A DNA stretch of 21,665 nt, from the IMG/VR virus record IMGVR_UViG_3300044632_002476, positions 1 through 21,665 of that record; one strand, written 5' to 3'. Below, in pieces: positions 1-13,753 of the stretch. Origin of the DNA: a virus. Position 1 is the stretch's first letter. The number at the start of each line of letters is the position of its first letter. Both the position numbers and the translations under genes were made by a program. Below the pieces are notes generated by a model. It did not search any database. It saw only the letters and a program-made list of their open reading frames with translations, and was not told the DNA's origin.

Positions 1-546
1 GTTTAGTTCTTTAAACTCTGTAGGCAGGGCAATCTCAAAAGAGACAATGTGCACATAGAATTTTGCGCGCATGCTTTCTTTAGATGGGTAGTACCTTTCA
101 AGCGCATCAATTTTTACGCTGTCTTTGTGCTGCTCATAGAAGTCGAGAGCCTCCTGCTTGTACTTGTCATAGTTTTCAATAAACTCTTCAGCAGTAGCCA
201 TGTACTCATTCTTAAGCTTATTCAGCTCAGTGTAAACTTCCAGGTACCTGTTCTTTGGAACAAAGTGGGCCTGGCTAATTAATGGGAACTCAAAAGAATT
301 GGTATACAGATACCTCCTGATTTTCCCCTCAATGTTTTTGAACTTTTTGTACACAGCCTTTTGAATAAGCATTTTCTTACCAAGATCAATAGTGTCTGGC
401 AATTTATTATCCAACAGGATGTCTTCTTCAGTGAGGTTAACTGACATGCCCCACATACCAATGTGTACGTTCACAAGCTTCCCATCCTGGAAAACTTTGT
501 CATAGTATCTTTGCAATGTTGCTGTAATTTTAGGTTCTGTGTTCAT
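1..546 (-). CDS. DUF3150-like phage protein, C-terminus cut by window edge
   Basis: An open frame runs from ATG at 546 to the left edge (182 codons, no stop), so the C-terminus is missing. The pattern matches my memory of the DUF3150 family: a short strand with VNVHIGMWG and then LTEEDI near residues 24-42, a helix with LGKKMLIQKAVYKKF, an FP...HFVP stretch, then a long charged helix with LKNEYMATAEEFIENYDKY. Near the edge is KFYVHIVSFEIALP, which fits the family's C-terminal region. DUF3150 genes are known next to MoxR/CobS-type AAA ATPases in phages and mobile elements, and here the next gene upstream is an AAA ATPase, which supports the call. The molecular role is unknown. The gene lies 34 bases after the ATPase stop and is probably cotranscribed with it. 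It has no Shine-Dalgarno sequence; its leader is A-rich. Confidence 0.65.
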   Translation of the reverse strand, partial: MNTEPKITATLQRYYDKVFQDGKLVNVHIGMWGMSVNLTEEDILLDNKLPDTIDLGKKMLIQKAVYKKFKNIEGKIRRYLYTNSFEFPLISQAHFVPKNRYLEVYTELNKLKNEYMATAEEFIENYDKYKQEALDFYEQHKDSVKIDALERYYPSKESMRAKFYVHIVSFEIALPTEFKELN

Positions 547-580
547 AATTATCTAGTTAGTTTTGTTGTTGTTTTGTTGT
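547..580 (-). promoter_or_regulatory. A-rich CAA-repeat leader of the DUF3150-like gene
   Basis: On the minus strand the 34 bases between the ATPase stop and the next ATG are almost only A and C at first, with CAACAAAACAACAACAAAAC, then CTAGATAATT up to the ATG. No purine-rich Shine-Dalgarno core is present. An unstructured A-rich leader of this type can support ribosome binding in hosts with little Shine-Dalgarno use. That role is an inference. Confidence 0.4.
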
Positions 581-2236
581 TTACTCTTCACCGATTGCAA
601 TACTCAACTTGCGCATGTTCTTTTGTACATCCGCAATAGGATCACCATTGTTTGTGACCATCATTAATTTACCTTGGGCCTGTTGACGCATAGTCTCTAA
701 ATCTTCCTTGTGAGACTTTGCAAAAGGAATAAATTCCGCCAGCCCTTCTGTTATATGTGAGTCGTTTACTTCTTCTCCTACGTCAAACGCCTTGTACATA
801 GCGTCTTTGAAGACCTCCTCAATCTCAGCACCTGTAAACTGTTTTGAGCCAGTTACAAATGTGTTGATTGCGAAATTTCTAGGATCACGCCCATATTTTT
901 TAATAACTACACTGAAGATTTCCTTACGCTCGTCGGCAGTAGGAAGGTCTACCCAGAACAGCTGGTCAAAGCGACCCTTGCGGATTAGTGCAGGAGGGAG
1001 CAGCGTGTGGTTGTTCGTGGTTGCCACAATAAACGCAGGGTTTGTGCGGTCATTGAGCCAGGTCAGGAATGTCCCAAAGATACGGCTGCTTACGCCGCTA
1101 TCTCCAGCACCACTCACCGCGCTAGAGCTCAGTGACTTCTCAATTTCGTCAATGAGGATTACGCATTTACCGACAGACTCTACTGTCTTGATAACTTCTC
1201 GCATATTTTTCTCGCTGTTACCCACCAGAGAATCAAAGATGCTACCAATATCGAGCGCAAATAAGGGGCAATCAAACTCCTTGGCAATTGCTTTACATAT
1301 TAGAGACTTGCCTGTACCAGGAACGCTGGCCAGCAGCATGCCCTTAGGTAATGGCAGGTTATATGCTCGTGCTTCTTTTGCATATGCTTTTTTACGAGAC
1401 ATGAGCCAGGTTTTTAGCCCACCTAAACCGCCAACATTATCAAAGCTGACGTTAGGCTCCATATAACTCAATAGCCCGTTCTTCTTTAACTGGGCAATTT
1501 TTTCCTGGAAAACAGTTTGCACAAACGCCTCATTATACGTCTTGTTTTCAGCCCAGGCTAGAGCAATAGCATTTTCAGCTTCTGTGGAGGTCATACCTTT
1601 AGCCGCCTCTGCCACCAGATCCTCGAAGGGTTCTGTCAACTCTGGAGCTTTCCTGTCTCCTCCTGTCTCTTCATTCTGAAGCTGAATTGTATTACGAATA
1701 GACATATCAATAAACTTCAACCTCTCCTTGTGGGCTTCTGCGTCAGGTAGAGAGTAGTCAAGAAGTTGAATTTCTTTCTGAAGTTCTCCAGGCACAGCAA
1801 ACTTATGCCCGGTAAATATCAGCATATTACCTCTCGCCTTCAATACATTCCATGCATTCCTGAGATGCCTGATCACAAGCTTGTTGTCAAAATGCATGTG
1901 AAAGTCTTTCATTACAAAAATACAATTACTCACATCATACGTCTGTAGATATAAAATAATTTTTGTGATGTTGGAAGTTATATCAACATTATGCAGCATT
2001 TCTTCATTTTCTTTTGTTGAAACTGTGGGTACTTCTGATCCGTCAGAATTTAACTGCTTGGGACCTGTGATATATTTCAGGCCAATCTGTACGTCCCATT
2101 CATATATAGATAAATCTGAATTAATTGCCCTGATACCGCAGAGCTCATTCATAAACCTTCTCTCCTCGTGTGTAAGTACAAACAAAGATGCGTAGGCAGA
2201 TTCTTGATATTTTGCTATTTTTCTGATGCTGTTCAT
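581..2236 (-). CDS. Ycf46-like AAA+ ATPase
   Basis: The 551-aa protein has the Ycf46 layout. An N-terminal domain carries a core like FVMKDFHMHFDNKLVIRHLR (about 107-126) and LLDYSLPDAE (158-167). A linker carries GMTSTEAENAIALA (214-227). An AAA+ module begins with NVGGLGGLKTWL (267-278). Walker A is VPGTGKS (305-311), where the usual GPPGTGKS has become SVPGTGKS. Walker B is VILIDEIEK (359-367), sensor 1 is ATTNN (405-409) and the arginine finger region is RKGRFD (419-424), so ATPase activity is probably intact. Ycf46/SpoVK-type proteins are common in cyanobacteria and plastids and their substrates are poorly defined. Here the enzyme may remodel a phage or host complex. The start ATG overlaps the AT-hook gene stop as ATGA, suggesting translational coupling. 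The C-terminal 100 residues are charged and helical. Confidence 0.9.
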   Translation of the reverse strand: MNSIRKIAKYQESAYASLFVLTHEERRFMNELCGIRAINSDLSIYEWDVQIGLKYITGPKQLNSDGSEVPTVSTKENEEMLHNVDITSNITKIILYLQTYDVSNCIFVMKDFHMHFDNKLVIRHLRNAWNVLKARGNMLIFTGHKFAVPGELQKEIQLLDYSLPDAEAHKERLKFIDMSIRNTIQLQNEETGGDRKAPELTEPFEDLVAEAAKGMTSTEAENAIALAWAENKTYNEAFVQTVFQEKIAQLKKNGLLSYMEPNVSFDNVGGLGGLKTWLMSRKKAYAKEARAYNLPLPKGMLLASVPGTGKSLICKAIAKEFDCPLFALDIGSIFDSLVGNSEKNMREVIKTVESVGKCVILIDEIEKSLSSSAVSGAGDSGVSSRIFGTFLTWLNDRTNPAFIVATTNNHTLLPPALIRKGRFDQLFWVDLPTADERKEIFSVVIKKYGRDPRNFAINTFVTGSKQFTGAEIEEVFKDAMYKAFDVGEEVNDSHITEGLAEFIPFAKSHKEDLETMRQQAQGKLMMVTNNGDPIADVQKNMRKLSIAIGEE

Positions 2237-2745
2237 GTTGCGATGAAGTTATTTTTTTTAATTTGTTTTAGTATGTCCGCATTTTGTACATTAAAGAACC
2301 CTAACACGTCAGCCATCATGGCTTCGTGTACAGATGTTCCATTTCTGGTTGCCCTGACTCTATAGTACTGAGTCTGGGTGTTGTGCATGTACGAACACAA
2401 CCAGTTTACGGCAAGATACAGAGGATGCTCTTGTATGTTATCCTGCCTCGAGGGCTTTTCCTCGCTTTTAGCTGGCTTGACCTCTTTTACCTCCTCAAGC
2501 CTTCTAGGTTTGCTTTTTACAAGAATTTTATTTTCTTCTACTTTGGGTTTATTCTTGGAACCCTTCGGTCTACCTCTTCCGCGTTTCGCTTCTTTAACTT
2601 GCGTGATTTGCTGGGGTAACTCTGCATTTTTAGGTTTATTCTTTGCCCCTTTGGGTCTGCCTCTTTTTCTAGGCACGCAGGGCTGCTCAGCTTCCGTCCG
2701 CAGATTCGTCGGGTGGCAAGCCTTTCCTTTCAATGTTTCTCTCAT
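2233..2745 (-). CDS. Protein with two AT-hook-like motifs
   Basis: The 170-aa protein has two near-identical basic motifs, RKRGRPKGAKNKPK (residues 26-39) and RGRGRPKGSKNKPK (55-68), each with the GRP core of an AT-hook that inserts in the minor groove of AT-rich DNA. A lysine- and glutamate-rich linker follows, then a folded-looking C-terminal part (about 105-170) beginning with HPLYLAVNWLCSYMH, which I do not recognise. DNA binding is a reasonable inference; the target is unknown. The stop TGA overlaps the start of the Ycf46-like ATPase. The ATG at 2745 gives a 59-base overlap with the small upstream gene. A GTG near residue 24 (about 2676) would remove the overlap and place the first motif at the N-terminus. 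Neither start has a Shine-Dalgarno sequence. Confidence 0.8.
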   Translation of the reverse strand: MRETLKGKACHPTNLRTEAEQPCVPRKRGRPKGAKNKPKNAELPQQITQVKEAKRGRGRPKGSKNKPKVEENKILVKSKPRRLEEVKEVKPAKSEEKPSRQDNIQEHPLYLAVNWLCSYMHNTQTQYYRVRATRNGTSVHEAMMADVLGFFNVQNADILKQIKKNNFIAT

Positions 2746-2863
2746 GAGATTTGGCTACATCCGTGTAGTACTTGGCATCAAGCTTAAGTTTTTCTACACG
2801 CTTGTATTTATCGCGTTTATTTCTAAGTTGATATTTTTTTATAGATCTACTCATGCATACCAT
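2687..2863 (-). CDS. Small basic protein, unknown
   Basis: This 58-aa frame reads MVCMSRSIKKYQLRNKR at its start and is rich in lysine and arginine, with a charged helix around DKYKRVEKLKLDAKYYTDVAKSHE. No family is recognised. I chose the ATG at 2863 (another ATG lies at 2854). The frame stays open upstream to a TTG at 2929, which would add 22 residues of low-complexity sequence. Its 3' end overlaps the AT-hook gene by 59 bases in another frame, so either it is the first gene of the operon or the AT-hook gene starts later. On the minus strand TATAAT lies directly before the ATG, which leaves almost no leader if it is used as a -10. The overlap is the main doubt. Confidence 0.5.
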   Translation of the reverse strand: MVCMSRSIKKYQLRNKRDKYKRVEKLKLDAKYYTDVAKSHERNIERKGLPPDESADGS

Positions 2864-2893
2864 TATATCATTCTGGTTTGTATTTGTAGACTC

Positions 2894-2899
2894 TATAAT
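2894..2899 (+). promoter_or_regulatory. Possible -10 element for the terminase transcript
   Basis: A perfect TATAAT lies here. Seventeen bases upstream is TTCTGG, a poor -35. The expected transcript would start near 2906 and give a leader of about 130 bases before the terminase ATG. It sits in the divergent gap between the minus-strand operon and the terminase, the expected place for a promoter. Confidence 0.35.
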
Positions 2900-3001
2900 G
2901 TTTTTTCTTGAAAGACTTTTGTCTATCAAATAGGCTGGTTAAGGCAGTTAAGGATACCTCAAAGAAATTAAATAGTTCTGTTGTTGGTGCTGGTTTCTGT
3001 T

Positions 3002-3037
3002 TTACCGCTCTGTGAAAACGGTAACTTTTTGTTTTTC
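3002..3037 (+). terminator. Terminator-like hairpin in the terminase leader
   Basis: TTACCG (3002-3007) pairs with CGGTAA (3019-3024) around an 11-base loop and is followed by CTTTTTGTTTTTCT, ending right at the ATG at 3039. A 6-bp stem is short, so termination may be partial. It could act as an attenuator on terminase expression or as a structured leader. A GTG at 3012 lies inside the loop. Confidence 0.35.
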
Positions 3038-3038
3038 T

Positions 3039-4757
3039 ATGATGACCCATGATACAGTTAAAGATACGGCAGAAAAGTTGCTTCGAAGGAATAATCCAAA
3101 GTCAGCCTTTCTGGCGCGTCAATTGATGTTTTCGGTACTTCCTCCGTCACATTTCGTAGAGAACTATCTATACGATAACGAAGGGCGTCTCCAGGACCTG
3201 GAGAATTTCCCGATGCTGAAGCAGATCTATGACAGCATGCCTCAGAAATTGCTGCTCAAGTGTAGCCGCAAAACTTTGAAGTCTACACTAATTAGTAATT
3301 TTATTTGTCTTAATTTAATTAGATGGAATTATTTTAAAATGATGTATGTCGGCCCTCAGGAACTGACGACAAAATACTTTTCAAGTAATTATCTGCCCCC
3401 AAGGTTTGAAAGCCCTAAAATCAAAAAGTTACTTAATAAAGGATGGTTTAAAAATGATGTTTTTGAAAAAATATTAGATGATACACATAGTAGTGTGTTG
3501 TTTAGATATGTGAGCGATGACGCTACACGAACTCGTGGACCTGCCATTGACTGCTTGGTGTATGACGAAATCCAGGATATTCAATATGACCAGATTCCTA
3601 TTATTCAGGAAACTATGGCGATGAGTCCTTATAAGCGCGAAATATTTGCGGGGACTCCGTTAGATTCAACAAATACAATTCACAGAATATGGAAATCATC
3701 AAATCAATTAGAATGGATGATGAAGTGTGCGAAATGTAATCATTGGAATTCTCTTACAGAAGGAAATGAACCACTTAAAATGGTGCAGCCTCACGGTTTC
3801 AGTTGCTCTAAATGTCTTAAGCAACTAAACTCTCGTAATGGAGAGTGGGTTGCTATGAACCCTGGATCATATCTTTTGACCGGCTATCACCTAGCTCAAC
3901 CTCTGTTACCGCACTTTAACGAAGATCCTAAAGAATGGAAAGAAATCTACGAAAAAGTACACAGCGGTAAGTATGAGTTAAGAACTGTCATGAATGAGAC
4001 TTTTGGTCTTACCTATGACATAGGCTCAAAACCAATTACCATGGAAGAGCTGGTTAAGATATGTACTCTTGGTCCTCAGTATGAAAATAATGCAGAGCAA
4101 AAAGGTTTAAATATCCTCGCAAAAAATAAATCAAAATATGTGCTTTATACTATGGGTGTAGACTGGGGTGTGAGTATGGCACAGTCAAGAACAGTTGCCA
4201 CTATGGGAGGCATGACAGCTGCAGGTGTCTTTGAAGTTGTTTTTGCAAAGATATATCGTGGGTTTGATTACGAGGCACACATTAAAGATATTGCAGAAAA
4301 GGCTAACAGCGTGGGAGCCTTTTGTGTGTCTGACTCTGGTCCTGACCCTATCAGAGGCATACGTTTATGCGAGCTTACAAGTATACAGAGGTCTCAGCTC
4401 GCGGCGTACAGAAGAACCAAAATGATTCAGCACTTTGAGCAAGGGCAATATGATTGGAGGCAGAATAGATGGGTATTGCATCGCTCTGATGTTATATCTC
4501 TAGTTATTCGCCAATTAAAAGCAGGCAAGATTAAATTTCCTCAATGGGACGATGTGTCAGAGTATATGCAGGACATTTTAAATGTATTCATTGAGGTGCG
4601 TGACGGGTTGTTTGGTCAGGAGCTTATATATGACCATCACCCCAAGCAGCCTGACGACGCTATGCATAGCCTTGTATTTGCGGTGTGTGCTGCCTATATG
4701 GCTATTGGTGACGCAGGTCTTGTGGGGGCTAGTAGTACGGCTGGTAGGGAAAATTAA
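3039..4757 (+). CDS. terL: Phage terminase large subunit, with zinc ribbon
   Basis: This is the ATP-driven DNA packaging motor and headful or site nuclease. Numbering from the GTG at 3012 (581 aa), the ATPase domain has a variant P-loop KCSRKTLKS (83-91) and Walker B CLVYDEIQD (181-189, with D185 and E186). A coupling region EIFAGTP follows (210-216). A zinc ribbon is formed by CAKC (239-242) and CSKC (265-268), as in GpA-like terminases. The RNase H-fold nuclease shows D384 in MGVDWG, D441 in CVSDSGPD and D548/D549 in QPDDAMHS, so all catalytic acids are present. I prefer the ATG at 3039 (or 3042) because the GTG lies in a hairpin loop. The neighbours on both sides run on the opposite strand. 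The stop overlaps the convergent AAA gene stop in TTAA. No small terminase subunit is visible in the window. Confidence 0.93.
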   Translation: MMTHDTVKDTAEKLLRRNNPKSAFLARQLMFSVLPPSHFVENYLYDNEGRLQDLENFPMLKQIYDSMPQKLLLKCSRKTLKSTLISNFICLNLIRWNYFKMMYVGPQELTTKYFSSNYLPPRFESPKIKKLLNKGWFKNDVFEKILDDTHSSVLFRYVSDDATRTRGPAIDCLVYDEIQDIQYDQIPIIQETMAMSPYKREIFAGTPLDSTNTIHRIWKSSNQLEWMMKCAKCNHWNSLTEGNEPLKMVQPHGFSCSKCLKQLNSRNGEWVAMNPGSYLLTGYHLAQPLLPHFNEDPKEWKEIYEKVHSGKYELRTVMNETFGLTYDIGSKPITMEELVKICTLGPQYENNAEQKGLNILAKNKSKYVLYTMGVDWGVSMAQSRTVATMGGMTAAGVFEVVFAKIYRGFDYEAHIKDIAEKANSVGAFCVSDSGPDPIRGIRLCELTSIQRSQLAAYRRTKMIQHFEQGQYDWRQNRWVLHRSDVISLVIRQLKAGKIKFPQWDDVSEYMQDILNVFIEVRDGLFGQELIYDHHPKQPDDAMHSLVFAVCAAYMAIGDAGLVGASSTAGREN

Positions 4758-5863
4758 AAGAATCCTACTCGTTTTTCTTCTGCCTTCTTGTAGCCTGGCT
4801 GATCTTCCATGTGGTAGATGTCTGCCAAAGTCATACCTTCTGTAATTCCCTCTGTGTTTAAATTTAAAGATTCTGCCAGTCTGATAGTATCCTCAAGGGA
4901 AAGCTTTCCAAACTCGTAGCTAAGCTTCAGCCTGCCTTTTCTTAGAAGTGCGGAATCAATATTATCTTTGCCTGTATTAAAGGTGGCAATAATTGACACG
5001 TTGGCTGCGTCTCCTAAAAAGCCTGACGTAAGGTTTAATATAGTTTGAACTACATCCGAGTCAGTAGATATCTCTCTAGAGATCAAAGCTTTCTCGGCAT
5101 CTTCAATAACAAGAATAATATCTTTGTTTTCTAGCAGCAGAGGAACAAGCTCAGGACTTGTGAGTTTTTCTACAATCCCTCCTGGGAGGTATACGATCTT
5201 ACGTTCAATATTGCACGAAGTAAGATATTTAATATATGAAGACTTACCTGTACCTGGTAGCCCGTTAAATAGATACAAGCCAGACGTAGATGTCTTCAAG
5301 CTATCTATAAGCTTATCATGAAACTCTAAAAAATTTTGCCCGTAGTTTAAGGCTAGGTCTCCGGATACTTCCATTGTGGGTAGCGGAGATAATGTTAACT
5401 CTCCGTATGTGGATGTAAGCATGTAAATTTTATTTTTACGTACTAGCTTGTGCGGAAGCAGAAGGTCACACAGTTTCTTTACGCTAGATCTGTCTTCCAC
5501 CGCTACCCGAATATGCACATGCAAATCATCCAGATCTTTCTTTTTAAGATCATTAAAGATACTAGCCACATGAAAATACTCACCCTCTGCAGACTTATAG
5601 GACGTCTGCATAAACACATCCTTATACTCACCATCTTTACCAATCCAGATGTTTTCTTCAACTACTCTGTTATTTATGACAGTGATGTCGCTAGAAAAAA
5701 CATCAAAGTGCTGCTCAATTTCTTTTAAAACGCTCATCTCAAAGGTGTCAGAAAAACCTAGAGATGTTGGAACAATACCTTTGAGTCTGTTGTAAAGAAA
5801 CTCTAATTTCTTAGTGTTTTGCAGTTCATAGAAATTGTGCAGTTGCTGGTTAGATGTGTGCAT
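4754..5863 (-). CDS. BCS1-like AAA ATPase
   Basis: The 369-aa protein has an N-terminal domain of about 180 residues of unknown type and a C-terminal AAA module. Walker A is GLPGTGKS (201-208). Walker B is IILVIEDAEKAL (249-260), with the ED order seen in the BCS1-like branch rather than DE. Sensor 1 is ATFNT (294-298) and LLRKGRL (306-312) holds the arginine finger. The protein ends in KRVGFF. Related ATPases occur in many large phages with no settled function, and a role in remodelling virion or replication complexes is possible. Its start overlaps the preceding 183-aa gene by 14 bases, so the two are probably coupled. The stop TAA at 4754-4756 lies within the TTAA shared with the terminase stop on the other strand. 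No terminator separates them. Confidence 0.85.
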   Translation of the reverse strand: MHTSNQQLHNFYELQNTKKLEFLYNRLKGIVPTSLGFSDTFEMSVLKEIEQHFDVFSSDITVINNRVVEENIWIGKDGEYKDVFMQTSYKSAEGEYFHVASIFNDLKKKDLDDLHVHIRVAVEDRSSVKKLCDLLLPHKLVRKNKIYMLTSTYGELTLSPLPTMEVSGDLALNYGQNFLEFHDKLIDSLKTSTSGLYLFNGLPGTGKSSYIKYLTSCNIERKIVYLPGGIVEKLTSPELVPLLLENKDIILVIEDAEKALISREISTDSDVVQTILNLTSGFLGDAANVSIIATFNTGKDNIDSALLRKGRLKLSYEFGKLSLEDTIRLAESLNLNTEGITEGMTLADIYHMEDQPGYKKAEEKRVGFF

Positions 5864-6401
5864 CGTCTATGTATTCTTTTAGTGTTTTAATTTTTTCGTC
5901 AAACAACTCTTGCAGAGCTTCATTCTTGCCTGTGTCATCGCCTTCACGCTCTTTCATAATAGCCTCAGGAAATAACACCGGAGGTTTATGCATACCATAG
6001 TCATGGAATATCTGACCAGCATAAACTCTAACTTCAGGAGAAAAATTTATCTTCTCACCTTTAATCAAGTAGGCTTCTGTGAGTCCGTATATTAGCTCCT
6101 CTGCTTCCAGAGGGTTTAGCTCTTCAATATTGTCTGGCTGGTTATTAAGCAAGTAATTTATAGTTTCAAAAACAGAAATATTTGACTCGTACACCTCTGT
6201 GGTAAGCAGCACAATGCCTGCCTGTATCTTATCAGACTGTAGATCAGATACAGAGCATTTGAAATCTTCCTGCAACTCTGCCCTTAAAACTGCAGCTTCC
6301 CACGTGTAACACTCTTCACCATATTCTTTTGTGATTAGCGCAATGAGTGCAAGTACCGGCGCTTTTTCATCTTCTAATATTTGTTTTTTACTTTTCTTCA
6401 T
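5850..6401 (-). CDS. Unknown acidic helical protein
   Basis: The 183-aa product is rich in glutamate and leucine and looks mostly helical, with a basic start MKKSKKQILEDEKAP and long amphipathic segments such as LNPLEAEELIYGLTEAYLIK. No cysteine cluster, signal peptide or membrane segment is seen and I do not recognise the family. It overlaps the AAA ATPase start by 14 bases and follows the 193-aa gene after 9 bases, so it belongs to the same transcript and may be a partner of the ATPase. A TATAAT lies 9 bases before its ATG. Confidence 0.8.
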   Translation of the reverse strand: MKKSKKQILEDEKAPVLALIALITKEYGEECYTWEAAVLRAELQEDFKCSVSDLQSDKIQAGIVLLTTEVYESNISVFETINYLLNNQPDNIEELNPLEAEELIYGLTEAYLIKGEKINFSPEVRVYAGQIFHDYGMHKPPVLFPEAIMKEREGDDTGKNEALQELFDEKIKTLKEYIDDAHI

Positions 6402-6415: not shown

Positions 6416-6992
6416 CTAGTTCACCGTTGGGGTCCACAAATTGTTTGTATACTTTCTGTACTGCTGCGTTTATGTAGTGCGCCCAATTGGTTAAGTGTTG
6501 AGAATTTAAACTTTTATCTAAATTTACTGCATACTCTACCCCAAACGGAGGAGCCAATATTACTCTCGGAGGCGATAGGCCGTCGGAGGTATAAACCACC
6601 TCGTTTTCAACTTTACGACTTGTGCAGGGTAGTACTGCAGTGGAAACAAACGGTATTATATTGAATGGTCTGGCCGATTCGGCTACTGCTGGGGGAGCAC
6701 CGTACTGCCAAAGTCTCCAGTAGTTCTTTAGTGTTTCTAACCTATCTTTCTCAAATATATCGTGCCTCACGGCACCGATACGTAAATCTAAATGATATCT
6801 CGGTGTGCTATAATGATTAAGTCTCTGTATGTTCCCTACAAGACACACAATTGCTTTATCCTGTCTTAGTGCATCAGTGAAAAATTTACTAGGATCATCG
6901 TAGTCAATAAAGTTTAAATATTTTCTTTTTTTAAAATGCTTGCCTCCTGGACGCCAGGCAATATGCACATCTTCGTCTGTGTAATGTATCAT
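6411..6992 (-). CDS. Unknown phage protein starting at a terminator
   Basis: The 193-aa protein starts MIHYTDEDVHIAWRPGG and contains FKKRKYLNFIDYDDPSKFF, a DLRIGAVRHDIFEKDRLETL segment and a proline-rich middle (SPPRVILAPPFGVEYAVNL). It looks like a soluble mixed alpha/beta protein and I recognise no family. Placement beside terminase and ATPases would suit a neck, completion or head-tail joining protein, but that is only context. The ATG directly follows the T-tract of the terminator of the preceding gene, with no Shine-Dalgarno sequence and no other methionine near the N-terminus. Expression must come from read-through or from a promoter within the terminator region, or else a non-ATG start further in is used. 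Confidence 0.75.
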   Translation of the reverse strand: MIHYTDEDVHIAWRPGGKHFKKRKYLNFIDYDDPSKFFTDALRQDKAIVCLVGNIQRLNHYSTPRYHLDLRIGAVRHDIFEKDRLETLKNYWRLWQYGAPPAVAESARPFNIIPFVSTAVLPCTSRKVENEVVYTSDGLSPPRVILAPPFGVEYAVNLDKSLNSQHLTNWAHYINAAVQKVYKQFVDPNGELV

Positions 6993-7032
6993 AAAAAAAA
7001 TAACCCGCCAGACTGTTGGGTCCTGGCGGGTT
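6993..7032 (-). terminator. Strong intrinsic terminator after the 351-aa gene
   Basis: A perfect 10-bp stem pairs 7002-7011 (AACCCGCCAG on the plus strand) with 7023-7032 (CTGGCGGGTT) around an 11-base loop. On the minus strand it is followed by ATTTTTTTT (8 T at 6993-7000). It lies 34 bases past the stop at 7067. The T-tract touches the ATG of the next minus-strand gene. Confidence 0.88.
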
Positions 7033-7066
7033 GTTATTTAATTTTAGTTTGTTTAAGTTTGTAAAA

Positions 7067-8122
7067 CTAGATAGGTCGCAATCCGGTGATTTCTTCCAGA
7101 AGCTTGATGTCACTCCTAGGCATGGTGGGCAGGATTTCTGCGATCTTCTCTGGATCCGCTGGATCAATTCCGCTGTCGCCAAAAGCTTCTTCGTACTTGT
7201 CCTTGCTGATCTTTGTGAGGTCTTCTAGCTTGTATTTGTCTCCATGCGCCTCTACGTAACTTAGGTCGCTTGCGACTTTTGTTACAGGTAGAGTAAAAAA
7301 CATGTCTACAGGGTCGCCCAGTATTTCAGCAGATGCTTTCTTGTCATAGAGCCCTTCCATGTTTTCAATATTAAAACAGGTCTCAGCGATCTTCATTACC
7401 TCACTAAGATCAGTCATATTGCTAAGATCGTTAGAAATAGACTCGTACACCTTCTTGTGTTCCTCTTTTGCAAGCTTTGTACTTCTGCGCCACAGCTCAT
7501 GAGTCAGGTTACCTAGATCTGGGTAATACAAGCCTGCATACTTTAAAAGCAGGTCAGGCATGTCATCAACACCTAAATCTGATGCCGCCTTGATAAAATT
7601 CTCGGCAGATTTAACCCTTACTTCAAAAGGAAAATTTTTAATATTTTTTACGAAATGTTCAGCTGAGTCGGTGAGGTCTGCTGCGGTCTTGACTGGAAAC
7701 AATTTAAATGTGTAGGACTCACCAGGAACAGGGACCTCCACCATATGCTTTTCTTCATACTCAGAGGCTACCTTCTCGTTCAACTCACGATTATAATTTT
7801 CAATATCTTCTGTAATACCTAAAACTTCCGCAGCTTCTTTGATTTTATTTTCCAATTGACTAACGTAATCTTCCCCGTATAACTTGGAGATACCGGCCCT
7901 TTTATTAATCAAATGAGCGTTACTCACATAAACCCTAGCAGGAGTATTGATAGGATAGATCATTCTGTCCTGGTCTGCAAAAGCTGTTTTAGGGAGCTGG
8001 CGAATCTCGTAAGAATCTTCCAACTCGGCTGTTTTGACATACTCGGGAATTTCCACGCCGTGGAGCATAGCGTAAAGCTGTTTCCCTGAATAGTCTGATT
8101 GTTGATCTAAAGCGATTTTCAT
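7067..8122 (-). CDS. Unknown acidic protein, possibly abundant structural protein
   Basis: The 351-aa protein begins MKIALDQQSDYSGKQLYAML and is rich in lysine, glutamate and aspartate. It has a probable coiled coil around residues 85-125 (LENKIKEAAEVLG, YNRELNEKVASEYEEKH) and recurring short (K/S)(T/V)A(A/S)(D/E)L-type strings. I recognise no domain. It is transcribed alone: a near-consensus promoter lies just upstream and a strong intrinsic terminator follows, which is typical of a highly expressed gene, so an abundant virion or scaffold-type protein is plausible. It ends in TAG. Its ATG has the only Shine-Dalgarno-like string in the window (AGGT, five bases before the start). It is divergent from the 424-aa gene, with 17 bases between start codons. 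Confidence 0.85.
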   Translation of the reverse strand: MKIALDQQSDYSGKQLYAMLHGVEIPEYVKTAELEDSYEIRQLPKTAFADQDRMIYPINTPARVYVSNAHLINKRAGISKLYGEDYVSQLENKIKEAAEVLGITEDIENYNRELNEKVASEYEEKHMVEVPVPGESYTFKLFPVKTAADLTDSAEHFVKNIKNFPFEVRVKSAENFIKAASDLGVDDMPDLLLKYAGLYYPDLGNLTHELWRRSTKLAKEEHKKVYESISNDLSNMTDLSEVMKIAETCFNIENMEGLYDKKASAEILGDPVDMFFTLPVTKVASDLSYVEAHGDKYKLEDLTKISKDKYEEAFGDSGIDPADPEKIAEILPTMPRSDIKLLEEITGLRPI

Positions 8123-8159: not shown

Positions 8160-9414
8160 TTCCAAAATAAACCTACCCAGCGTAGTGTCAAAGCTAGGTA
8201 TCAGTACGTCAGAATACGATTTCATTAGAGTACCTCTTTTTGGATGGTATGCAAGAGCTAAAGCAAACGATTTTGTTGGAAACATTTTTGATTTTTTTAC
8301 GATAGACGAATGGCCTAAACTCTACGGGAGAATCTGTAGAGACTTCTCTGATTGCTTTGATTTTAATTTACCTTATAGCGAATACGCTGAAAAGCAACTG
8401 TTTAAGAATCAAAGCAGGATCATGCAGTTTCAATCTCTGTGGGTAATGGCTGCGCAAGAAGCGCAAGCTGTAAGAGTTAGGCATTTTGATAAAGTGGTTT
8501 ATTTGACGGATCTACTGAATGACCTAGGTATGCCTGAATTGCTATCTAATAAGTTTGGTTATCTCACAGAAAAAATAATGAAGGCTTTTCCCAGGCTTGA
8601 GCTGGAGAGTAAGTTTAAATACAAAAAAACTGTTATAGTTCCGTCTTTTTGTTCTCCTAAGCATATCTGCTCTCTAGAGGTATCCAGACTTGCAGACATC
8701 AATAGCCGAGAGACTCTGTTTATTAACGGGGAGTATGGCTGGTACGGCTGTCAGGGTACACAGATAGTTAGAGATATCAATGAACTTAAAGTTAAAAAAG
8801 GTAATACTTGGAATTATAAAAATGACCTCTGGAATAATACACCCATAGCTGTTTCGGATATGGTGGGAACAGAGCAGCTCATTAAGCTATGGAGTGAAGC
8901 GTCGTATACCAAATTTACAGAAAACATTATGGACATCATAATGGGTAAACAGGGTACAGAAGATTTAAGAAACCATGTGGCAATGCTTAACTATACGCAA
9001 GTTCAGGAGCTCGAAAAAAACAGTGAGCAAAGTTTACTGCCCTTCTGGATGAAGAGCAGAGAACAGCAATTTAACGTACAAGGTAAAACTTATGTTAAGC
9101 GGGATAAAGCCTATTTTCTGATTAAAAAGAACGAAGAAGAGCAGCTCACTAATTTTACGCTAGATATTATCGAGATACGTAAAAAGGGGGAAGATGAGTT
9201 TGTGTGGTGCGGTATGATATACTTTGAAGAGCACGCTGTACCTTTTGAAATGGAAGATAAATACTTCATGTCTTGCCATCTGTTTACAAAAGGAATCAGA
9301 AAGATGTTTCTAGGCCTAGGATTAGGTATTCCTTTTATTAACGAAAAATATGTAAGGCAACTAATCACAATGATCCAGCTTACCTGCCATAATGTTAAAA
9401 TAGTGAATAGCTAA
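8140..9414 (+). CDS. Unknown 424-aa protein, possible degenerate primase relative
   Basis: I do not recognise this protein with certainty. Its N-terminal part (residues 25-55) holds DFIRVPLFGWYARAKANDF then VGNIFDFF, which recalls the end of a DnaG zinc-binding domain (F-G-x-G-x-x-G-D-x-F-D-F) but without the zinc cysteines. Later stretches, TVIVPSFCSPKHICSLEVSR and a region near TPIAVSDMVGTEQLIKLW, are spaced roughly like the core of a primase, yet no clear Toprim acidic pair is seen. The C-terminal third is mixed, with lysine- and glutamate-rich strands, and ends in VKIVNS. The start is the ATG at 8140, 17 bases from a divergent start, without a Shine-Dalgarno sequence. The gene is alone on its strand. 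The primase link is weak inference. Confidence 0.8.
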   Translation: MLLNSFNSKINLPSVVSKLGISTSEYDFIRVPLFGWYARAKANDFVGNIFDFFTIDEWPKLYGRICRDFSDCFDFNLPYSEYAEKQLFKNQSRIMQFQSLWVMAAQEAQAVRVRHFDKVVYLTDLLNDLGMPELLSNKFGYLTEKIMKAFPRLELESKFKYKKTVIVPSFCSPKHICSLEVSRLADINSRETLFINGEYGWYGCQGTQIVRDINELKVKKGNTWNYKNDLWNNTPIAVSDMVGTEQLIKLWSEASYTKFTENIMDIIMGKQGTEDLRNHVAMLNYTQVQELEKNSEQSLLPFWMKSREQQFNVQGKTYVKRDKAYFLIKKNEEEQLTNFTLDIIEIRKKGEDEFVWCGMIYFEEHAVPFEMEDKYFMSCHLFTKGIRKMFLGLGLGIPFINEKYVRQLITMIQLTCHNVKIVNS

Positions 9415-9434
9415 AAGAAACCGGGTTTTTTAAA

Positions 9435-9468
9435 CTTTCTCCTGCAGTGCGCAACTAGCAGGAGAAAG
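9435..9468. repeat. Perfect 11-bp inverted repeat after the 424-aa gene
   Basis: CTTTCTCCTGC (9435-9445) and GCAGGAGAAAG (9458-9468) are perfect reverse complements around a 12-base loop that contains TGCGCA. No T-tract follows on either strand, so it is not a standard intrinsic terminator. It may be a 3' mRNA stabiliser, a protein-binding site or a processing hairpin. Confidence 0.7.
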
Positions 9469-9488
9469 ATCTCTCAATATATTATAAC

Positions 9489-9619
9489 AAAAAAACTGCT
9501 TCGTGGTTAGGCCAACTGCTGCAGTATACAGTTCAAAAAGGGCGCAAGCAGCGCCTGACCGAGGTACTCACGACTTCCCTTTTCTGAGTGCCCAAAGCCC
9601 AATTACTCAGAAATTTTTT
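9489..9619 (+). ncRNA. Candidate small structured RNA
   Basis: The gene-free interval holds several stems: TCGTG (9501-9505) with CACGA (9569-9573), GTTAGGC (9506-9512) with GCCTGAC (9553-9559), AACTG (9514-9518) with CAGTT (9529-9533), and GGCGC (9541-9545) with GCGCC (9551-9555). The second and fourth stems share bases, so they would be alternative folds. An intrinsic terminator closes the interval. TATAAC at 9483-9488 could be a -10, without a good -35. It is not a tRNA: no cloverleaf or T-arm fits. The region could also be a 3' UTR of the 424-aa gene. No known RNA family is recognised. Confidence 0.35.
9581..9619 (+). terminator. Intrinsic terminator on the plus strand
   Basis: TTTCTGAGT (9581-9589) pairs perfectly with ACTCAGAAA (9605-9613) around a 15-base loop and is followed by six T (9614-9619). 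It ends plus-strand transcription from the 424-aa gene or from the candidate RNA. Its 3' arm lies inside the last codons of the convergent 77-aa gene. Confidence 0.7.
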
Positions 9620-9836
9620 GCTCTGGATGCGCTTTACCAAGAATTATGCCATCTGTGGCTATGTCATCCAGACTTCTCAGACACCAGGTGCCTGTAGAAA
9701 CACTGTATTGCGCATGCTTTGCTTTTACTAATTCACTTCTCCATCTACTGTTTGCTGCTTGTGCGCCCACAATCACGCCAATAAGTAACAATAGTATACC
9801 TACCAGCAAAGTATTTATAAATTTTATGTTTTGCAT
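9603..9836 (-). CDS. Small single-pass membrane protein
   Basis: The 77-aa protein has a short N-terminal MQNIKF, one strong membrane helix at about residues 7-28 (INTLLVGILLLLIGVIVGAQ) and a soluble tail with HAQYSVSTGTWCLRSLDDIA. Small phage proteins with one N-terminal helix and an A-x-Y-x-x-x-T-G-x-W/F type tail are common and usually of unknown function. An i-spanin or other lysis role is possible but not shown. There is no lipobox. The start overlaps the end of the 55-aa gene by 13 bases, suggesting coupling. The end overlaps a plus-strand terminator. Confidence 0.7.
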   Translation of the reverse strand: MQNIKFINTLLVGILLLLIGVIVGAQAANSRWRSELVKAKHAQYSVSTGTWCLRSLDDIATDGIILGKAHPEQKISE

Positions 9837-9991
9837 ACAGGGTGCAAGTTTTGTGCTTGGTTAAGCCTTAATTGAGTTAACTTGTTTTTCTTTAAAAGAA
9901 GCAGCTTATCTAGCTCTTCTTTCAATTGCTCTAGCTGAGAAACCGTTAAGTCTTCCAGCATATCTAACAATCTAGCTTCTGTTGTTTTCAT
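9824..9991 (-). CDS. Small 55-aa coiled-coil-like protein
   Basis: Reading from ATG at 9991 gives 55 codons and TAA at 9824-9826. The sequence starts MKTTEARLLDMLEDLTVSQL and continues with a leucine- and lysine-rich heptad-like helix (LEQLKEELDKLLLLKKNKL), then a polar tail ending VCKT. A coiled coil is very likely; the function is unknown. The stop lies 13 bases into the membrane-protein gene, so the two form a small operon. Together they could make a membrane-anchored complex, but that is speculation. A TATAAT with an extended -10 lies about 45 bases upstream. Confidence 0.55.
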   Translation of the reverse strand: MKTTEARLLDMLEDLTVSQLEQLKEELDKLLLLKKNKLTQLRLNQAQNLHPVCKT

Positions 9992-10033
9992 GTATAATAG
10001 GCTAAAAAAGGCTAAATGCCTCTACAGCAATAT

Positions 10034-10042
10034 ATTATACCA
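10034..10042 (-). promoter_or_regulatory. Extended -10 promoter for the two small genes
   Basis: On the minus strand TGGTATAAT combines a full TATAAT (10034-10039) with the TGn extension. The -35 is weak (GACACA with a 17-base spacer). A transcript starting near 10027 would pass AGGC-ATTTA-GCCT followed by five T (10004-10021), a 4-bp hairpin that may be a weak attenuator. Confidence 0.45.
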
Positions 10043-10061
10043 TAAAATACGCAAAATGTGT

Positions 10062-10991: not shown

Positions 10992-11999
10992 TTATATTGC
11001 AGGAGTTAAATTAACTGGCGCACATATGTCCGTTTTTTGAAAGTCTAACCCAACAAATAAAGTATTAGGATTTGAGGGTTCTGTCAAGGAATCTTCAAAA
11101 GTAGAGTCGATTGTTTCTCCAGAGGAAATAATGATACTGTTTCCTGGAAGTAGCCTGAAATTGCCTCGATCGTCTGGCGGAATGCCATTAATGTACGACA
11201 CCAACTCGTCGCAGTTTAGGTATATCGGATCTAGGAACCTTGTTTCACAGTTCATCATTAAACCGTAGGCTGCACCAACTTCAAGGTCAATAAGCTCATT
11301 ATTGATATTGACTCTAAAATTAAATCCTTCTAGAAGCTGGACGTCTCCGTCCAGCTTTGTGGGTTCGTTTATTCCAGTTTGCTGTTGCAGTGGGTCATAT
11401 ACACTCACAAGAGGCAATACTGGTGTATAAGAATTATCTACTGTTTTTTTCTCTGGTGCAGTGCGCAAGCTATTAACCCCAAGCCACGCATCATTAAACT
11501 GTATGCAGGCTGATGGCTCAATAGGTATACCTATGCTGATTCCCGCACCGGCGCCAAGTCTGCTGCAGCCGTTTAACTCCCTTGGGTACATGATGTCAGC
11601 GTATTCTTTAACACCTTTACCAAAAACACCCAAATGCCCTTCTGGAGTTCTTATATATGTGGGGTAGCTGCGTGTTCTTGCCTGCGGAATTGAAAAAATT
11701 ACAAGATCTCTTACACCTTGGCCGTACTGATATTCTGAAATATACACCTCGACAGTATCTAGATTTAAATCTGAACTTGAGCCCTCAGGATACCTTTTAT
11801 AGCATAGCCCTGAAAAAAGAATATCTGTGTCAGTCAATGACGAATCAACCAGCTTAAGCTGCAAATCAAGCAGCAAGTTGTCCGGTATCAAATAAGTTAT
11901 ATCTGCTGTAGGTCCAATTATTACACGCCTGTCAGCAGAGTCTAGTAGCGGATAAGCTCTGACCTCATTTTCGTTTAACCAATCAATTACCTGTTCCAT
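10992..11999 (-). CDS. Tail structural protein with N-x-N-x4-YPL start
   Basis: The 335-aa protein opens with LNENEVRAYPL (N9, N11, Y16, P17), the element shared with the next two genes. It then has an IPDNLLLDLQLKL strand region, a glycine-rich middle (GAGAGISIGIPI, about 150-159) and a C-terminal SYINGIPPDDRGNFRLLPG (268-286). The latter matches an ING-x-x-P-D-x-x-G-N-x-x-(I/L) pattern seen in many phage tail and baseplate proteins. A beta-rich fibre or baseplate subunit is likely. The gene lies 3 bases after the 237-aa gene in the same operon. No catalytic motif is seen, and the exact place in the virion is not known. Confidence 0.78.
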   Translation of the reverse strand: MEQVIDWLNENEVRAYPLLDSADRRVIIGPTADITYLIPDNLLLDLQLKLVDSSLTDTDILFSGLCYKRYPEGSSSDLNLDTVEVYISEYQYGQGVRDLVIFSIPQARTRSYPTYIRTPEGHLGVFGKGVKEYADIMYPRELNGCSRLGAGAGISIGIPIEPSACIQFNDAWLGVNSLRTAPEKKTVDNSYTPVLPLVSVYDPLQQQTGINEPTKLDGDVQLLEGFNFRVNINNELIDLEVGAAYGLMMNCETRFLDPIYLNCDELVSYINGIPPDDRGNFRLLPGNSIIISSGETIDSTFEDSLTEPSNPNTLFVGLDFQKTDICAPVNLTPAI

Positions 12000-12002
12000 A
12001 AA

Positions 12003-12716
12003 TTAAGATGCTAGGGTTGGTAGTGTGAACGCGCTTGTTCCTCCTGCCACAAGATCAATCGTAAGGTACGACCCTGTGGGTGACGTTATCTTTATGACAT
12101 CGTTGGACACAAGATTGATATTGTTATTCACAGGCTTTACAAGATTAATCTGTCTCAACCCTTCAGCTATCCCTGGTTTTACTGCGTGTCCTCCTACAGC
12201 ATTAAATGTAATACTGTTAAGCTCAGTTGAAGTATTATAGAATATGGTCTCGTCAACATCAGTTCTACCTAAAAGCACATCACCGTAACTGCCATCAAAA
12301 AGGTAAACGGCATCCTTTAAAGGTATACTCCTAACCGTGTCTTGTAAAAATTTTATGTCGTAAATTATTTTTCTTCCTACATACGAGCTCCATAATACCC
12401 CTGCACCAGGGCCTATAGTTAAACTACCCATGTGTCTATCTCCTGAATTGTTGTACATTCTCACATATCTTCCAGCATCGCCTGCATCATAAGTACTTTT
12501 TAAAAAAACAATATTGTCATTTGCACCATAATCAAAAGTTATGCTGAATATGATTTTATCATTTTCAACAAGAATGTAATTTAATGTTGGTATAAAGTTG
12601 TCGAACTGTACAAACTTTGCATCAACTATGAAATCTTGAACTTCTTGGTCCAGCGTAAATGGATAGCTAGACAGCGCGTTTTCATTCTGCCAATTTAATG
12701 TGTTATATATTGCCAT
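12003..12716 (-). CDS. Tail structural protein with N-x-N-x4-YPF start
   Basis: The 237-aa protein opens with LNWQNENALSSYPF (N11, N13, Y18, P19) and then DFIVDAKFVQFDNFIPTLNY, aligning with the start of the 335-aa and 343-aa neighbours. The rest is beta-rich with alternating hydrophobic residues, including IIFSITFDYG, GSLTIGPGAG and IKITSPTGSYLTIDL near the C-terminus. No enzyme motif is present. It is the shortest of the three relatives and lacks the ING-P element of the others. Gaps to its neighbours are 3 and 5 bases. It is probably a minor tail, fibre or baseplate subunit; paralogy with its neighbours rests on the N-terminal motif only. Confidence 0.78.
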   Translation of the reverse strand: MAIYNTLNWQNENALSSYPFTLDQEVQDFIVDAKFVQFDNFIPTLNYILVENDKIIFSITFDYGANDNIVFLKSTYDAGDAGRYVRMYNNSGDRHMGSLTIGPGAGVLWSSYVGRKIIYDIKFLQDTVRSIPLKDAVYLFDGSYGDVLLGRTDVDETIFYNTSTELNSITFNAVGGHAVKPGIAEGLRQINLVKPVNNNINLVSNDVIKITSPTGSYLTIDLVAGGTSAFTLPTLAS

Positions 12717-12721
12717 AAGAT

Positions 12722-13753
12722 TTAAGTCGGGCTACTCCAATTTTCGTAATAAGATTCTTTAACAAATTGTGGCCAAAAATAATACTCAGGTAGCGTTGTG
12801 TTATTAAAATTACTGGCGCTTCGTTGTGGTCTTTCTGTACTGCATTCTCCTACTTCGAGTACAGGTAATTCTGGTTTTGAATAATATTTATCTTTAAACT
12901 CTATTGCTGGTAATGTAAAACCGCAGACATTCACAGGAGGAAGAACTTTGTGCTTTAAAGTGCATAATGCGTCAATATTTAAATCCCCTGTATCTACACC
13001 TATTGTACCAGGCTCTGTTGTATTTTCAAGAATTCCAGGTATCCCATAAAACACAATAGGTTTAATTCCTGCAATATATATGTTCCAATCATTAATTGGT
13101 GAAGCTCCTCCAGGAGAAGACGGGAATACACCATTAATATTTTTAATTATAGGTGTAGGGCAGTTGTTTAAATATATTGATTGATCTGCAGGATTAAATA
13201 GTCTTTCTGGATAGGTGGCTTGAAATTTTGCATGTTTGTTTGAAGAGCTTGAAGTTTTTGTTAGATTTGTTAATACTCCAAAATTTACATATCCTCTAAG
13301 TTCTGAGTATTTTTTATCTACAATACTTGTTACCTTGGGTGGAGTGTAACAAAAAATTGTAGACTCTTCAAACTCGCTGTTTTCTGGCAAAAAAACCAGC
13401 GCTCTATCAATGTTTGATACTGTCTCTAAATTTCCTATCGTGATGCTGCCGCTTACATTTCTAACAAAAGGAGTAAGTGTCAGTGTGGTGTCTTCTGAAA
13501 GCACCTCACCAATAAAACAACCTAACACAAGCTCGTCCAGCAAAGAGGCTATAGTTATCCTTAAAACAGAATCTTTGTAGTGAATCTGCTTAATGTATAT
13601 TCTGTGCCTACCATATAAAGTAGTTATAGACGCGTTGACAATCAGACTATCTCCCACCACGAACCCTGCAGTTGATTTTAAATTGGCTGTCTGCTTTAAA
13701 GGGTATTTTCTATATTTATTTTTGTTGTTAAATGATAAGGAAAGTATGCTCAT
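12722..13753 (-). CDS. Tail structural protein with N-x-N-x4-YPL start
   Basis: The 343-aa protein opens with LSFNNKNKYRKYPL (N10, N12, Y17, P18), then beta-rich sequence (GDSLIVNASITTLYG, IYIKQIHY, VLRITIASLLDEL), a serine-rich stretch near 168-172 and NINGVFPSSPGG followed by DWNIYIAG (205-229), similar to the ING-x-x-P element of the 335-aa protein. It ends with an aromatic-rich tail (YYFWPQFVKESYYENW). It directly follows the giant FN3 protein (25 bases), so it is a candidate partner that anchors or caps that fibre, which is an inference. Its start is preceded by AAAGTAAAATTAT, without a clear Shine-Dalgarno sequence. Confidence 0.78.
   Translation of the reverse strand: MSILSLSFNNKNKYRKYPLKQTANLKSTAGFVVGDSLIVNASITTLYGRHRIYIKQIHYKDSVLRITIASLLDELVLGCFIGEVLSEDTTLTLTPFVRNVSGSITIGNLETVSNIDRALVFLPENSEFEESTIFCYTPPKVTSIVDKKYSELRGYVNFGVLTNLTKTSSSSNKHAKFQATYPERLFNPADQSIYLNNCPTPIIKNINGVFPSSPGGASPINDWNIYIAGIKPIVFYGIPGILENTTEPGTIGVDTGDLNIDALCTLKHKVLPPVNVCGFTLPAIEFKDKYYSKPELPVLEVGECSTERPQRSASNFNNTTLPEYYFWPQFVKESYYENWSSPT

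Follow-up and report, generated by a model that had tools for sequence, protein, structure and literature searches.

Gene organization of the locus

The window, a stretch of 21,665 nucleotides of a large phage, starts at position 1 of IMG/VR virus record IMGVR_UViG_3300044632_002476 and begins with an operon of three genes encoding an AT-hook protein, a classical AAA ATPase and a DUF3150 protein that runs off the left edge (Table 1). The first two genes overlap by 4 bp at the AAA start, 34 bases separate the AAA stop from the DUF3150 start, and a terminase (packaging) gene adjoins the operon in the window. A preliminary description of this DNA had proposed such an operon, and its coordinates and strand were right. 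The DUF3150 assignment was confirmed with Pfam, as the 182-residue fragment matched PF11348 with 45 bits (E 1.1e-11) and a full-length relative with 49.2 bits (cut-off 24.9 for both).

Table 1. Genes and motifs of the operon in window coordinates.
Feature	Position	Strand	Details
AT-hook gene	2745-2233	minus	170 aa
AT-hook core 1, RGRPKG	2647..2664	minus	residues 28-33; coordinates by hand
AT-hook core 2, RGRPKG	2560..2577	minus	residues 57-62; coordinates by hand
Classical AAA ATPase gene, Ycf46-like layout (AAA1)	2236-581	minus	551 aa
Walker A, SVPGTGKS	1304..1327	minus	coordinates by hand from the translation
Walker B, VILIDE	1145..1162	minus	residues 359-364; coordinates by hand
Arginine-finger region, RKGRF	968..982	minus	residues 419-423; coordinates by hand
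DUF3150 gene	546-1	minus	N-terminal 182 aa, open at window edge; PF11348

The preliminary description had asked whether the three genes co-occur in other phages, and it would have failed if the left-edge protein had been assigned elsewhere or the neighbourhood had not been conserved. Neither occurred: the order AT-hook, AAA, DUF3150 on one strand was kept in all 33 related viral loci, a constancy beyond chance even though about one third of them are near-duplicates of another locus. The junctions are short or overlapping, with an exception of 1,189 bases in one locus (L034), where the gap contains a homing-endonuclease-like ORF. The gene architecture of the phage module is well supported by these data.

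Besides its two RGRPKG cores, the AT-hook protein has a conserved C-terminal region. RGRP is invariant across 14 aligned relatives, and one relative scored 16.7 bits against PF02178, under the cut-off of 17.4. The DNA-binding partner that had been suggested is constant in the phages, lying upstream of the AAA gene in 33/33 viral loci, but no AT-hook gene was seen in the bacterial and plasmid modules examined. As far as seen, the AT-hook partner is thus phage-specific and lies outside the wider module.

The AAA ATPase

The ATPase matched PF00004 (E 5.5e-29, Pfam) and phrog_8638 (E 8.4e-123), and among PDB chains it resembled those of the Cdc48/VCP D2 type. Its N-terminal ~280 residues look like an AAA domain devoid of a P-loop, and an active-type AAA domain follows. 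We take this protein to be of the Ycf46 type, a name that none of the homologues compared carried in its record. Homologues from cyanobacterial and other plasmids cover 92-98% of the query, the N-terminal half aligns with bacterial homologues, and the query shares 37% identity with a Treponema plasmid protein across 97% of its own length. Its motifs had been called intact, and Walker B, sensor 1 (ATTN) and the RKGRF region are indeed present. The claim needs a footnote because Walker A starts with a serine, which in the aligned phage proteins replaces the first glycine of G-x4-GK[ST].

For this motor, PADLOC and NCBIfam returned generic AAA matches only. The AAA domain is weakly like IetA (PADLOC E 2.3e-27) and the module occurs in mobile-element contexts, which could fit a host-takeover or counter-defence machine whose ATPase and adaptor disarm a host complex or defence system. 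We consider this explanation unlikely, since the IetA likeness is that of the common AAA fold (81 bits against an NCBIfam cut-off of 510), the module is constant in the phage group and not patchy, and just one of eight other proteins scanned together with two AAA proteins matched a defence model, weakly (E 0.0073). No match to the IetS protease partner was obtained among the proteins scanned with PADLOC.

Genes beyond the left edge

The genes that follow DUF3150 were studied in relatives, as the window ends earlier. They encode a ~100-aa protein, a DUF1257/Ycf35-type protein, a DUF2997 protein and a ~87-aa protein. HMMs built partly from the phage sequences themselves detected DUF1257 after DUF3150 in 29 of the 33 viral loci and DUF2997 in 27, the exceptions lying at contig ends. 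The DUF2997 protein of a relative scored 38.5 bits (cut-off 24.1). A single DUF1257 sequence reached 14.6 bits, below the cut-off of 22.2, and by profile the relatives' DUF1257 was recognized at 97.4% (E 9.6e-12; off-target control 0.2%). The ~87-aa protein matched its bacterial counterpart at 98.2% (control 0.4%). A model of the DUF1257-type protein (mean pLDDT 67.3) was not telling when compared with the PDB (best Z 5.2).

The neighbours on the phage side include an SMC/RecF-type ATPase and a metallophosphoesterase, which lie downstream in relatives together with helicase- and primase-like ORFs. These genes are not structural, and the isolate stretches examined show no annotated terminase adjacent to the AAA gene. 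Both observations argue against a virion-assembly chaperone, in which the ATPase would serve capsid, tail or terminase assembly. Such a role is suggested by the terminase gene next to the operon and by a baseplate-V gene after the AAA homologue on the Treponema plasmid, and we regard it as improbable.

DUF3150 proteins are known from modules with a CobT-like VWA protein, and the preliminary description suggested looking for a VWA/CobT-like gene past the left edge. The DUF1257- and DUF2997-type genes stand there instead, and the VWA profiles PF13519 and PF00092 matched in none of 13 related phage records, some of them perhaps incomplete; in 14 control genomes, these profiles matched in 12 and 11, respectively. 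With the AAA_5 profile, matches with E up to 0.01 were found in seven of the same 13 records, over the cut-off in three. One of these three is a clear CobS-like gene, which lies far from the operon and therefore is not its motor.

Two contexts of DUF3150

Full-length DUF3150 proteins of the relatives are mostly ~332-343 aa long (one has 368). Their predicted model was weak (mean pLDDT 61.1) and yielded no telling match in the PDB, with Z up to 6.8. In a viral structure library, eight matches with E <0.01 were obtained, one of them named DUF3150, at low TM-scores. The best E was 0.06 when PDB sequences were searched with the full-length protein (phmmer), tblastn of isolate phages with both the fragment and the full-length protein returned no relatives, and a literature search found no paper naming DUF3150. 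The phage profile matched bacterial DUF3150 at 98.2% and 99.7%, the latter value being that for the Ycf46-linked branch (E 7.6e-26, 295 columns), and the CobT-linked branch less well (90.1%, E 1.6e-6). By sequence profile, the DUF3150 of the phages thus resembles the Ycf46-linked proteins more than the CobT-linked ones.

To compare these contexts, we used one set of bacterial genomes picked for having the AAA and later sets drawn by phylum. Among 28 bacterial DUF3150 places, six were of the CbbQ/CobS-DUF3150-CobT(VWA) type, 16 were of the Ycf46/DUF1257/DUF2997 type, six were neither and none was mixed. Planctomycete proteins from three loci (L065, L067 and L068) were excluded from this count; they are not DUF3150 by Pfam, matched the bacterial DUF3150 profile at 97% and did not match the phage profile (2.8%). 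A survey of 282 Myxococcota genomes gave no DUF3150, and its controls were also silent, so that absence is not shown. DUF3150 thus recurs together with a Ycf46-type motor, and this pairing is a genuine alternative to the CbbQ/CobS-DUF3150-CobT(VWA) module. The operon had been proposed to be a variant of the MoxR/CobS module with a Ycf46-type motor; the recurrence of this pairing in bacteria supports the proposed motor, but no VWA profile matched in the 13 records.

These data also bear on whether the phage operon is a CbbQ/CobS (MoxR)-DUF3150-CobT(VWA) chaperone module that has degenerated or been rearranged, its VWA gene lying elsewhere in the phage. DUF3150 is a hallmark of that module, as on a Vibrio plasmid where a CbbQ-type AAA, DUF3150 and CobT-VWA lie in one region, and the distant CobS-like gene mentioned above would fit as well. 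We nevertheless find this origin highly unlikely, since the motor belongs to PF00004 and not to PF07728/CbbQ_C (no match to either up to E 1, Pfam), VWA profiles are absent from 13/13 records, the partner sets were mixed in 0/28 places and the phage DUF3150 is nearer the Ycf46-linked branch.

Seen from the ATPase, DUF3150 is an optional part, as it was found in only 4 of 80 bacterial AAA loci. In 27 of the 80, on several short contigs among others, the partner families were undetected nearby. In the AAA tree, the modules that do bear DUF3150 are spread over three distinct regions. In the bacterial locus L193, the genes run DUF3150-DUF1257-DUF2997-81 aa-AAA, and the small fifth protein is likewise present in L187, L065, L067 and L057. 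Bacterial neighbours include RadC, SSB, primase, PD-(D/E)XK and DNA polymerase beta-clamp domain proteins.

A different reading starts from the occurrence of Ycf46 and Ycf35 in photosynthetic cells: the module might mature or reload a redox or metal cofactor enzyme, the phage thereby keeping a host enzyme running. The AAA gene adjoins DUF1257 in many cyanobacteria, and a gene for a 4Fe-4S protein neighbours the module in Paenibacillus and the AAA gene in Treponema. A passage of PMC4284462 places the cyanobacterial DUF2997-ycf35 pair beside the ferredoxin gene fed7, which is at the same time a counter-indication to a DNA role. On the other hand, inspection by eye of the listed ORFs near the phage operon revealed no Fe-S or ferredoxin gene, the phage and DUF3150-bearing bacterial loci adjoin DNA-metabolism genes, and the AT-hook partner suggests DNA. 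We hold this reading, itself a guess, to be rather unlikely.

A proposed nucleoprotein-remodelling machine

Part-by-part homology, the constant phage gene order, the same families in bacteria and plasmids and the DNA-metabolism neighbourhood support the view that the window holds the left-hand end of a phage-borne version of a bacterial Ycf46-type AAA+ remodelling module, with a putative DUF3150 adaptor, that would probably act on nucleoprotein. In this view, DUF3150 is a subunit common to two alternative AAA+ machines. We assign this interpretation a probability of roughly 60%. Its core would consist of the Ycf46-type ATPase, DUF3150, the DUF1257 (Ycf35) protein, DUF2997 and the ~87-aa protein, joined in a physical complex. 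A ring is the most likely form of the ATPase, which would spend ATP on dismantling or remodelling a protein complex. Its coupling to the substrate may fall to DUF3150 as an adaptor or regulatory subunit, by analogy with the other module, where DUF3150 stands between CbbQ/CobS and CobT-VWA, and the three small proteins would have accessory roles. The machine is probably anchored on A+T-rich DNA by the AT-hook protein, whose gene overlaps that of the ATPase, and such a tether would make nucleoprotein the likely substrate, in replication, recombination or packaging.

More broadly, and tentatively, DUF3150 might be the marker of a family of AAA+ machines whose motors can be exchanged, with CbbQ/CobS and CobT-VWA in one branch and a Ycf46-type motor, DUF1257, DUF2997 and the small protein in the other. 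The second branch, found in phages, plasmids and bacterial DNA-metabolism islands, would act on nucleoprotein, the AT-hook subunit steering it to DNA in this phage group. We rate this wider scheme at somewhat below even odds. The comparison of the two contexts suggests that DUF3150 has swapped motors between AAA+ machines. Such a swap is directly testable, and the compact phage copy offers a convenient place to do so. Four uncharacterized families, namely DUF3150, DUF1257/Ycf35, DUF2997 and a small family without a name, travel with one ATPase, and if they form one machine, the function of any member would explain the rest, including plastid and cyanobacterial Ycf46 and Ycf35.

Comparison with known systems

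Conjugative plasmids, for example Vibrio parahaemolyticus pA-vp-201806, and some bacteria have the CbbQ/CobS (MoxR family)-DUF3150-CobT(VWA) module, which also combines DUF3150 with an AAA+ ATPase and likewise occurs on mobile DNA near recombination genes. Its motor is AAA_5 plus CbbQ_C and its partner CobT/VWA, whereas the phage motor is a classical AAA whose N-terminus is Ycf46-like, and no VWA profile matched in the 13 related records.

Three isolate phages with a phrog_8638 AAA (Aeromonas phage HJ05, Pseudomonas phage SM1 and Agrobacterium phage JP1) have DUF1257 and/or DUF2997 within four genes after it. Unlike in the present phage, the protein that follows their AAA is not recognisable as DUF3150; for these three and Firecracker, such an identity was ruled out by profile. 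Neither DUF1257 nor DUF2997 was found in the stretch of Firecracker examined. Other phages with the same motor have unrelated proteins directly after it, which speaks against the proposed remodelling module.

The Ycf46-type AAA, DUF1257 (Ycf35) and DUF2997 loci of cyanobacteria and many bacteria share full-length AAA homology and the DUF1257/DUF2997 neighbourhood with the phage, but mostly lack DUF3150, and the AT-hook and ~100-aa genes of the phage were not seen there. The bacterial sets with DUF3150 differ from the phage in gene order, DUF3150 being last in L057, L202 and L203 and first in L193, and no AT-hook gene was seen in them. On Ca. Manganitrophus plasmids and in the genomes L202 and L203 (AAA-DUF1257-DUF2997-DUF3150), as well as in L193, the same four families lie close together as in the phages.

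A DUF3150 operon in phages and its gene order in viral relatives

The 21,665-base virus record covers part of a tailed-phage genome, in which the three operon genes run divergently from the terminase gene. A Pfam match above the cut-off, a check that had been set beforehand, confirmed the assignment of the left-edge fragment to DUF3150. The motifs of the AAA protein had been described as intact; this holds for all but Walker A, where the aligned phage sequences have serine in place of the first glycine. No clear Shine-Dalgarno motif precedes the three operon starts (2745, 2236 and 546), which may be a hint on the host. Elsewhere in the window, a second AAA ATPase gene, whose stop overlaps the end of the oppositely oriented terminase gene, is retained in most relatives. 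The ORF at the right edge encodes repeated units of ~90 aa that, judged by eye, look like fibronectin type III domains, and its product is possibly an adhesin.

Features of the window and of related phage loci (L numbers)
Source	Feature	Coordinates	Strand	Remarks
Window	DUF3150 gene	546-1	-	cut by window edge; Pfam above cut-off
Window	AAA gene	2236-581	-	Pfam above cut-off
Window	AT-hook gene	2745-2233	-	two RGRPKG cores in protein
Window	terminase large subunit	3012-4757	+	PF05876, phrog_675
Window	second AAA ATPase	4754-5863	-	PF00004, 38.4 bits; phrog_14322
Window	2,628-aa ORF	13779-21665	-	open at right edge
L029	tmRNA	2818-3224		
L030	tmRNA	1655-2091		
L034	tmRNA	2720-3129		
L029	abiF RNA	5676-5713		above Rfam cut-off
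L030	abiF RNA	5583-5619		above Rfam cut-off
L032, L033	AAA gene split at Walker A	8921-10046		
L029	AAA gene split at Walker B	10998-11824		
L034	endonuclease-like ORF in DUF3150 gene	12552-13415		287 aa
L047	CobS-like AAA_5 gene	6419-7495		followed by 259-aa ORF

Scanning viral contigs with the AAA protein yielded 33 loci (55-85% identity by best segment), roughly a third of which are near-duplicates, so that the independent cases are fewer. The neighbourhood, for which a survey had been proposed, proved to be conserved: the AT-hook, AAA and DUF3150 genes occur in this order on one strand at all 33. They are followed by genes for proteins of ~100 aa (without a Pfam match), 129 aa and, optionally, ~95 aa, then by DUF2997 and a protein of ~87 aa. 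As a single sequence the 129-aa protein falls under the Pfam cut-off for DUF1257; its profile matched DUF1257 proteins of other phages and bacteria at 97.4% (E 9.6e-12; unrelated-profile control 0.2%). With HMMs built in this analysis, AAA, DUF3150, DUF1257 and DUF2997 were found together at 27 of the 33 loci, while DUF2997 alone was missing at two and both DUF1257 and DUF2997 at four; all six stop at a contig edge. The ~87-aa protein likewise matched 77-89-aa proteins at bacterial loci in a profile comparison (98.2%, E 3.5e-14; control 0.4%), and at one bacterial locus (L193) five consecutive genes encode DUF3150, DUF1257, DUF2997, an 81-aa protein and AAA. Farther downstream, relatives carry a metallophosphoesterase, helicase-like and primase-like ORFs (recognised by eye) and, in L026, an SMC/RecF-type ATPase.

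Three relatives contain tmRNA genes, and the window has none at or above the cut-off. The abiF RNA matches in L029 and L030 are found at the homologue of window positions 5850-6401 or a short way upstream of it.

Among the 60 matches listed, isolate phages with the AAA protein showed 26-36% identity. Four were inspected: by Pfam, HJ05 and SM1 carry DUF1257 and DUF2997, JP1 carries DUF2997 and Firecracker neither. In all four, AAA is followed by a gene other than DUF3150; HJ05 also encodes a relative of the ~87-aa protein.

Two settings of DUF3150

The preliminary description suggested that the operon may be a variant of the MoxR/CobS-DUF3150-VWA module and advised looking for a VWA/CobT-like gene beyond the left edge. 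Each of 13 related phage records gave a single match to PF11348 (DUF3150) and none to the VWA profiles PF13519 and PF00092 (controls: matches in 12 of 14 and 11 of 14 genomes); the expected CobT-like partner is thus absent from these records. One related record, L047, has a CobS-like AAA_5 gene, and the VWA profiles found no match there.

In bacteria, PF11348 occurred in 4/50 genomes picked for their AAA, in 17/387 genomes of the phylum of L079 (Verrucomicrobia), in 4/392 of the phylum of L111 (Planctomycetota) and in 0/282 of the phylum of L136 (Myxococcales), where the controls matched none either and no absence is shown. We inspected 28 distinct places, leaving out further copies in one genome (G180). 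CbbQ-type AAA and/or CobT-VWA genes lie beside DUF3150 at six (L181-L185, L198), and DUF1257, DUF2997 and/or Ycf46-type AAA genes at 16 (L079, L152, L154, L157, L186-L193, L196, L202-L204), including L186 with DUF1257 only, L204 with AAA only, and L154 and L157 with weak DUF1257/DUF2997 scores. Neither set was seen at the remaining six, where a contig end cuts L153, L155, L156 and L195 but not L194 and L197, and no place had a mixed set. The phage DUF3150 profile matched the Ycf46-linked branch at 99.7% over 295 columns and the CobT-linked branch at 90.1% over 233 columns (99.0% between the two branches), which on sequence grounds places it with the former rather than the latter.

Of at least 584 candidates from a scan of bacterial genomes with the AAA alignment, 80 loci were kept. 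Within about 6 kb, 27 had DUF1257 only, nine DUF2997 only, 13 both, four both plus DUF3150 (HMM built here) and 27 none of the three. Three of these four DUF3150 calls were weak and below Pfam; the proteins matched the bacterial DUF3150 profile (97%) but not that of the phages (2.8%). DUF3150-bearing modules fell in three separate places of a midpoint-rooted AAA tree of 101 sequences (support 1.0 for the phage clade, 0.8-0.9 for deeper nodes). Ca. Manganitrophus plasmids carry AAA, DUF1257, DUF2997 and DUF3150 in this order, then a small protein. On a Treponema succinifaciens plasmid (L059, 5082-6506), an AAA homologue (37% over 97% of the query) has a 4Fe-4S protein on one side and a phage baseplate-V gene on the other, a setting that might be a contractile injection system.

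Inserted elements and a possible mechanism

Several relatives have an AAA gene that is split at Walker A or Walker B by inserts with ORFs that by eye resemble homing endonucleases. In L032 and L033 the split falls right at Walker A (VPGTG/K), and the insert, without an Rfam match, holds a 283-aa LAGLIDADG-like ORF. Splits at Walker B occur in L029, L030, L031 and L034; the L029 insert has a 179-aa HNH-like ORF and a group I intron match of 26.4 bits, under the Rfam cut-off of 50 (E 0.0002). In L034 the beginning of the DUF3150 gene is interrupted as well: a second endonuclease-like ORF sits within it, immediately ahead of MWGMSYNL. Homing-endonuclease elements prefer conserved sites, and inserts at the Walker motifs would therefore fit an active ATPase. 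Inserts in both genes can be read as a natural sign of importance.

The AAA domain marks the motor as one of Cdc48/VCP type, so that by default it would form a ring and pull its substrate. DUF3150, for which a weak model predicts long helices and a small strand-bearing part, would serve as adaptor. The module likely works on DNA because of its AT-hook partner in phages, because RadC, SSB, primase, PD-(D/E)XK and DNA polymerase beta-clamp domain genes lie near several bacterial DUF3150 genes, and because Bet and exonuclease genes sit between AAA and DUF3150 on a Vibrio plasmid. The strongest counter-lead to a DNA role is a link of module families with a ferredoxin gene in cyanobacteria, as given in PMC4284462, together with 4Fe-4S proteins near the module or AAA in two plasmids.

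The literature searched, with subscription titles mostly outside its reach, did not name DUF3150; two papers in it name DUF2997 and three name DUF1257, and the passages covered gave no account of this module; such silence is therefore no proof of absence from print. AAA+ modules with DUF3150 are already known, and what appears to be new here is one with a different motor and a different set of partners.
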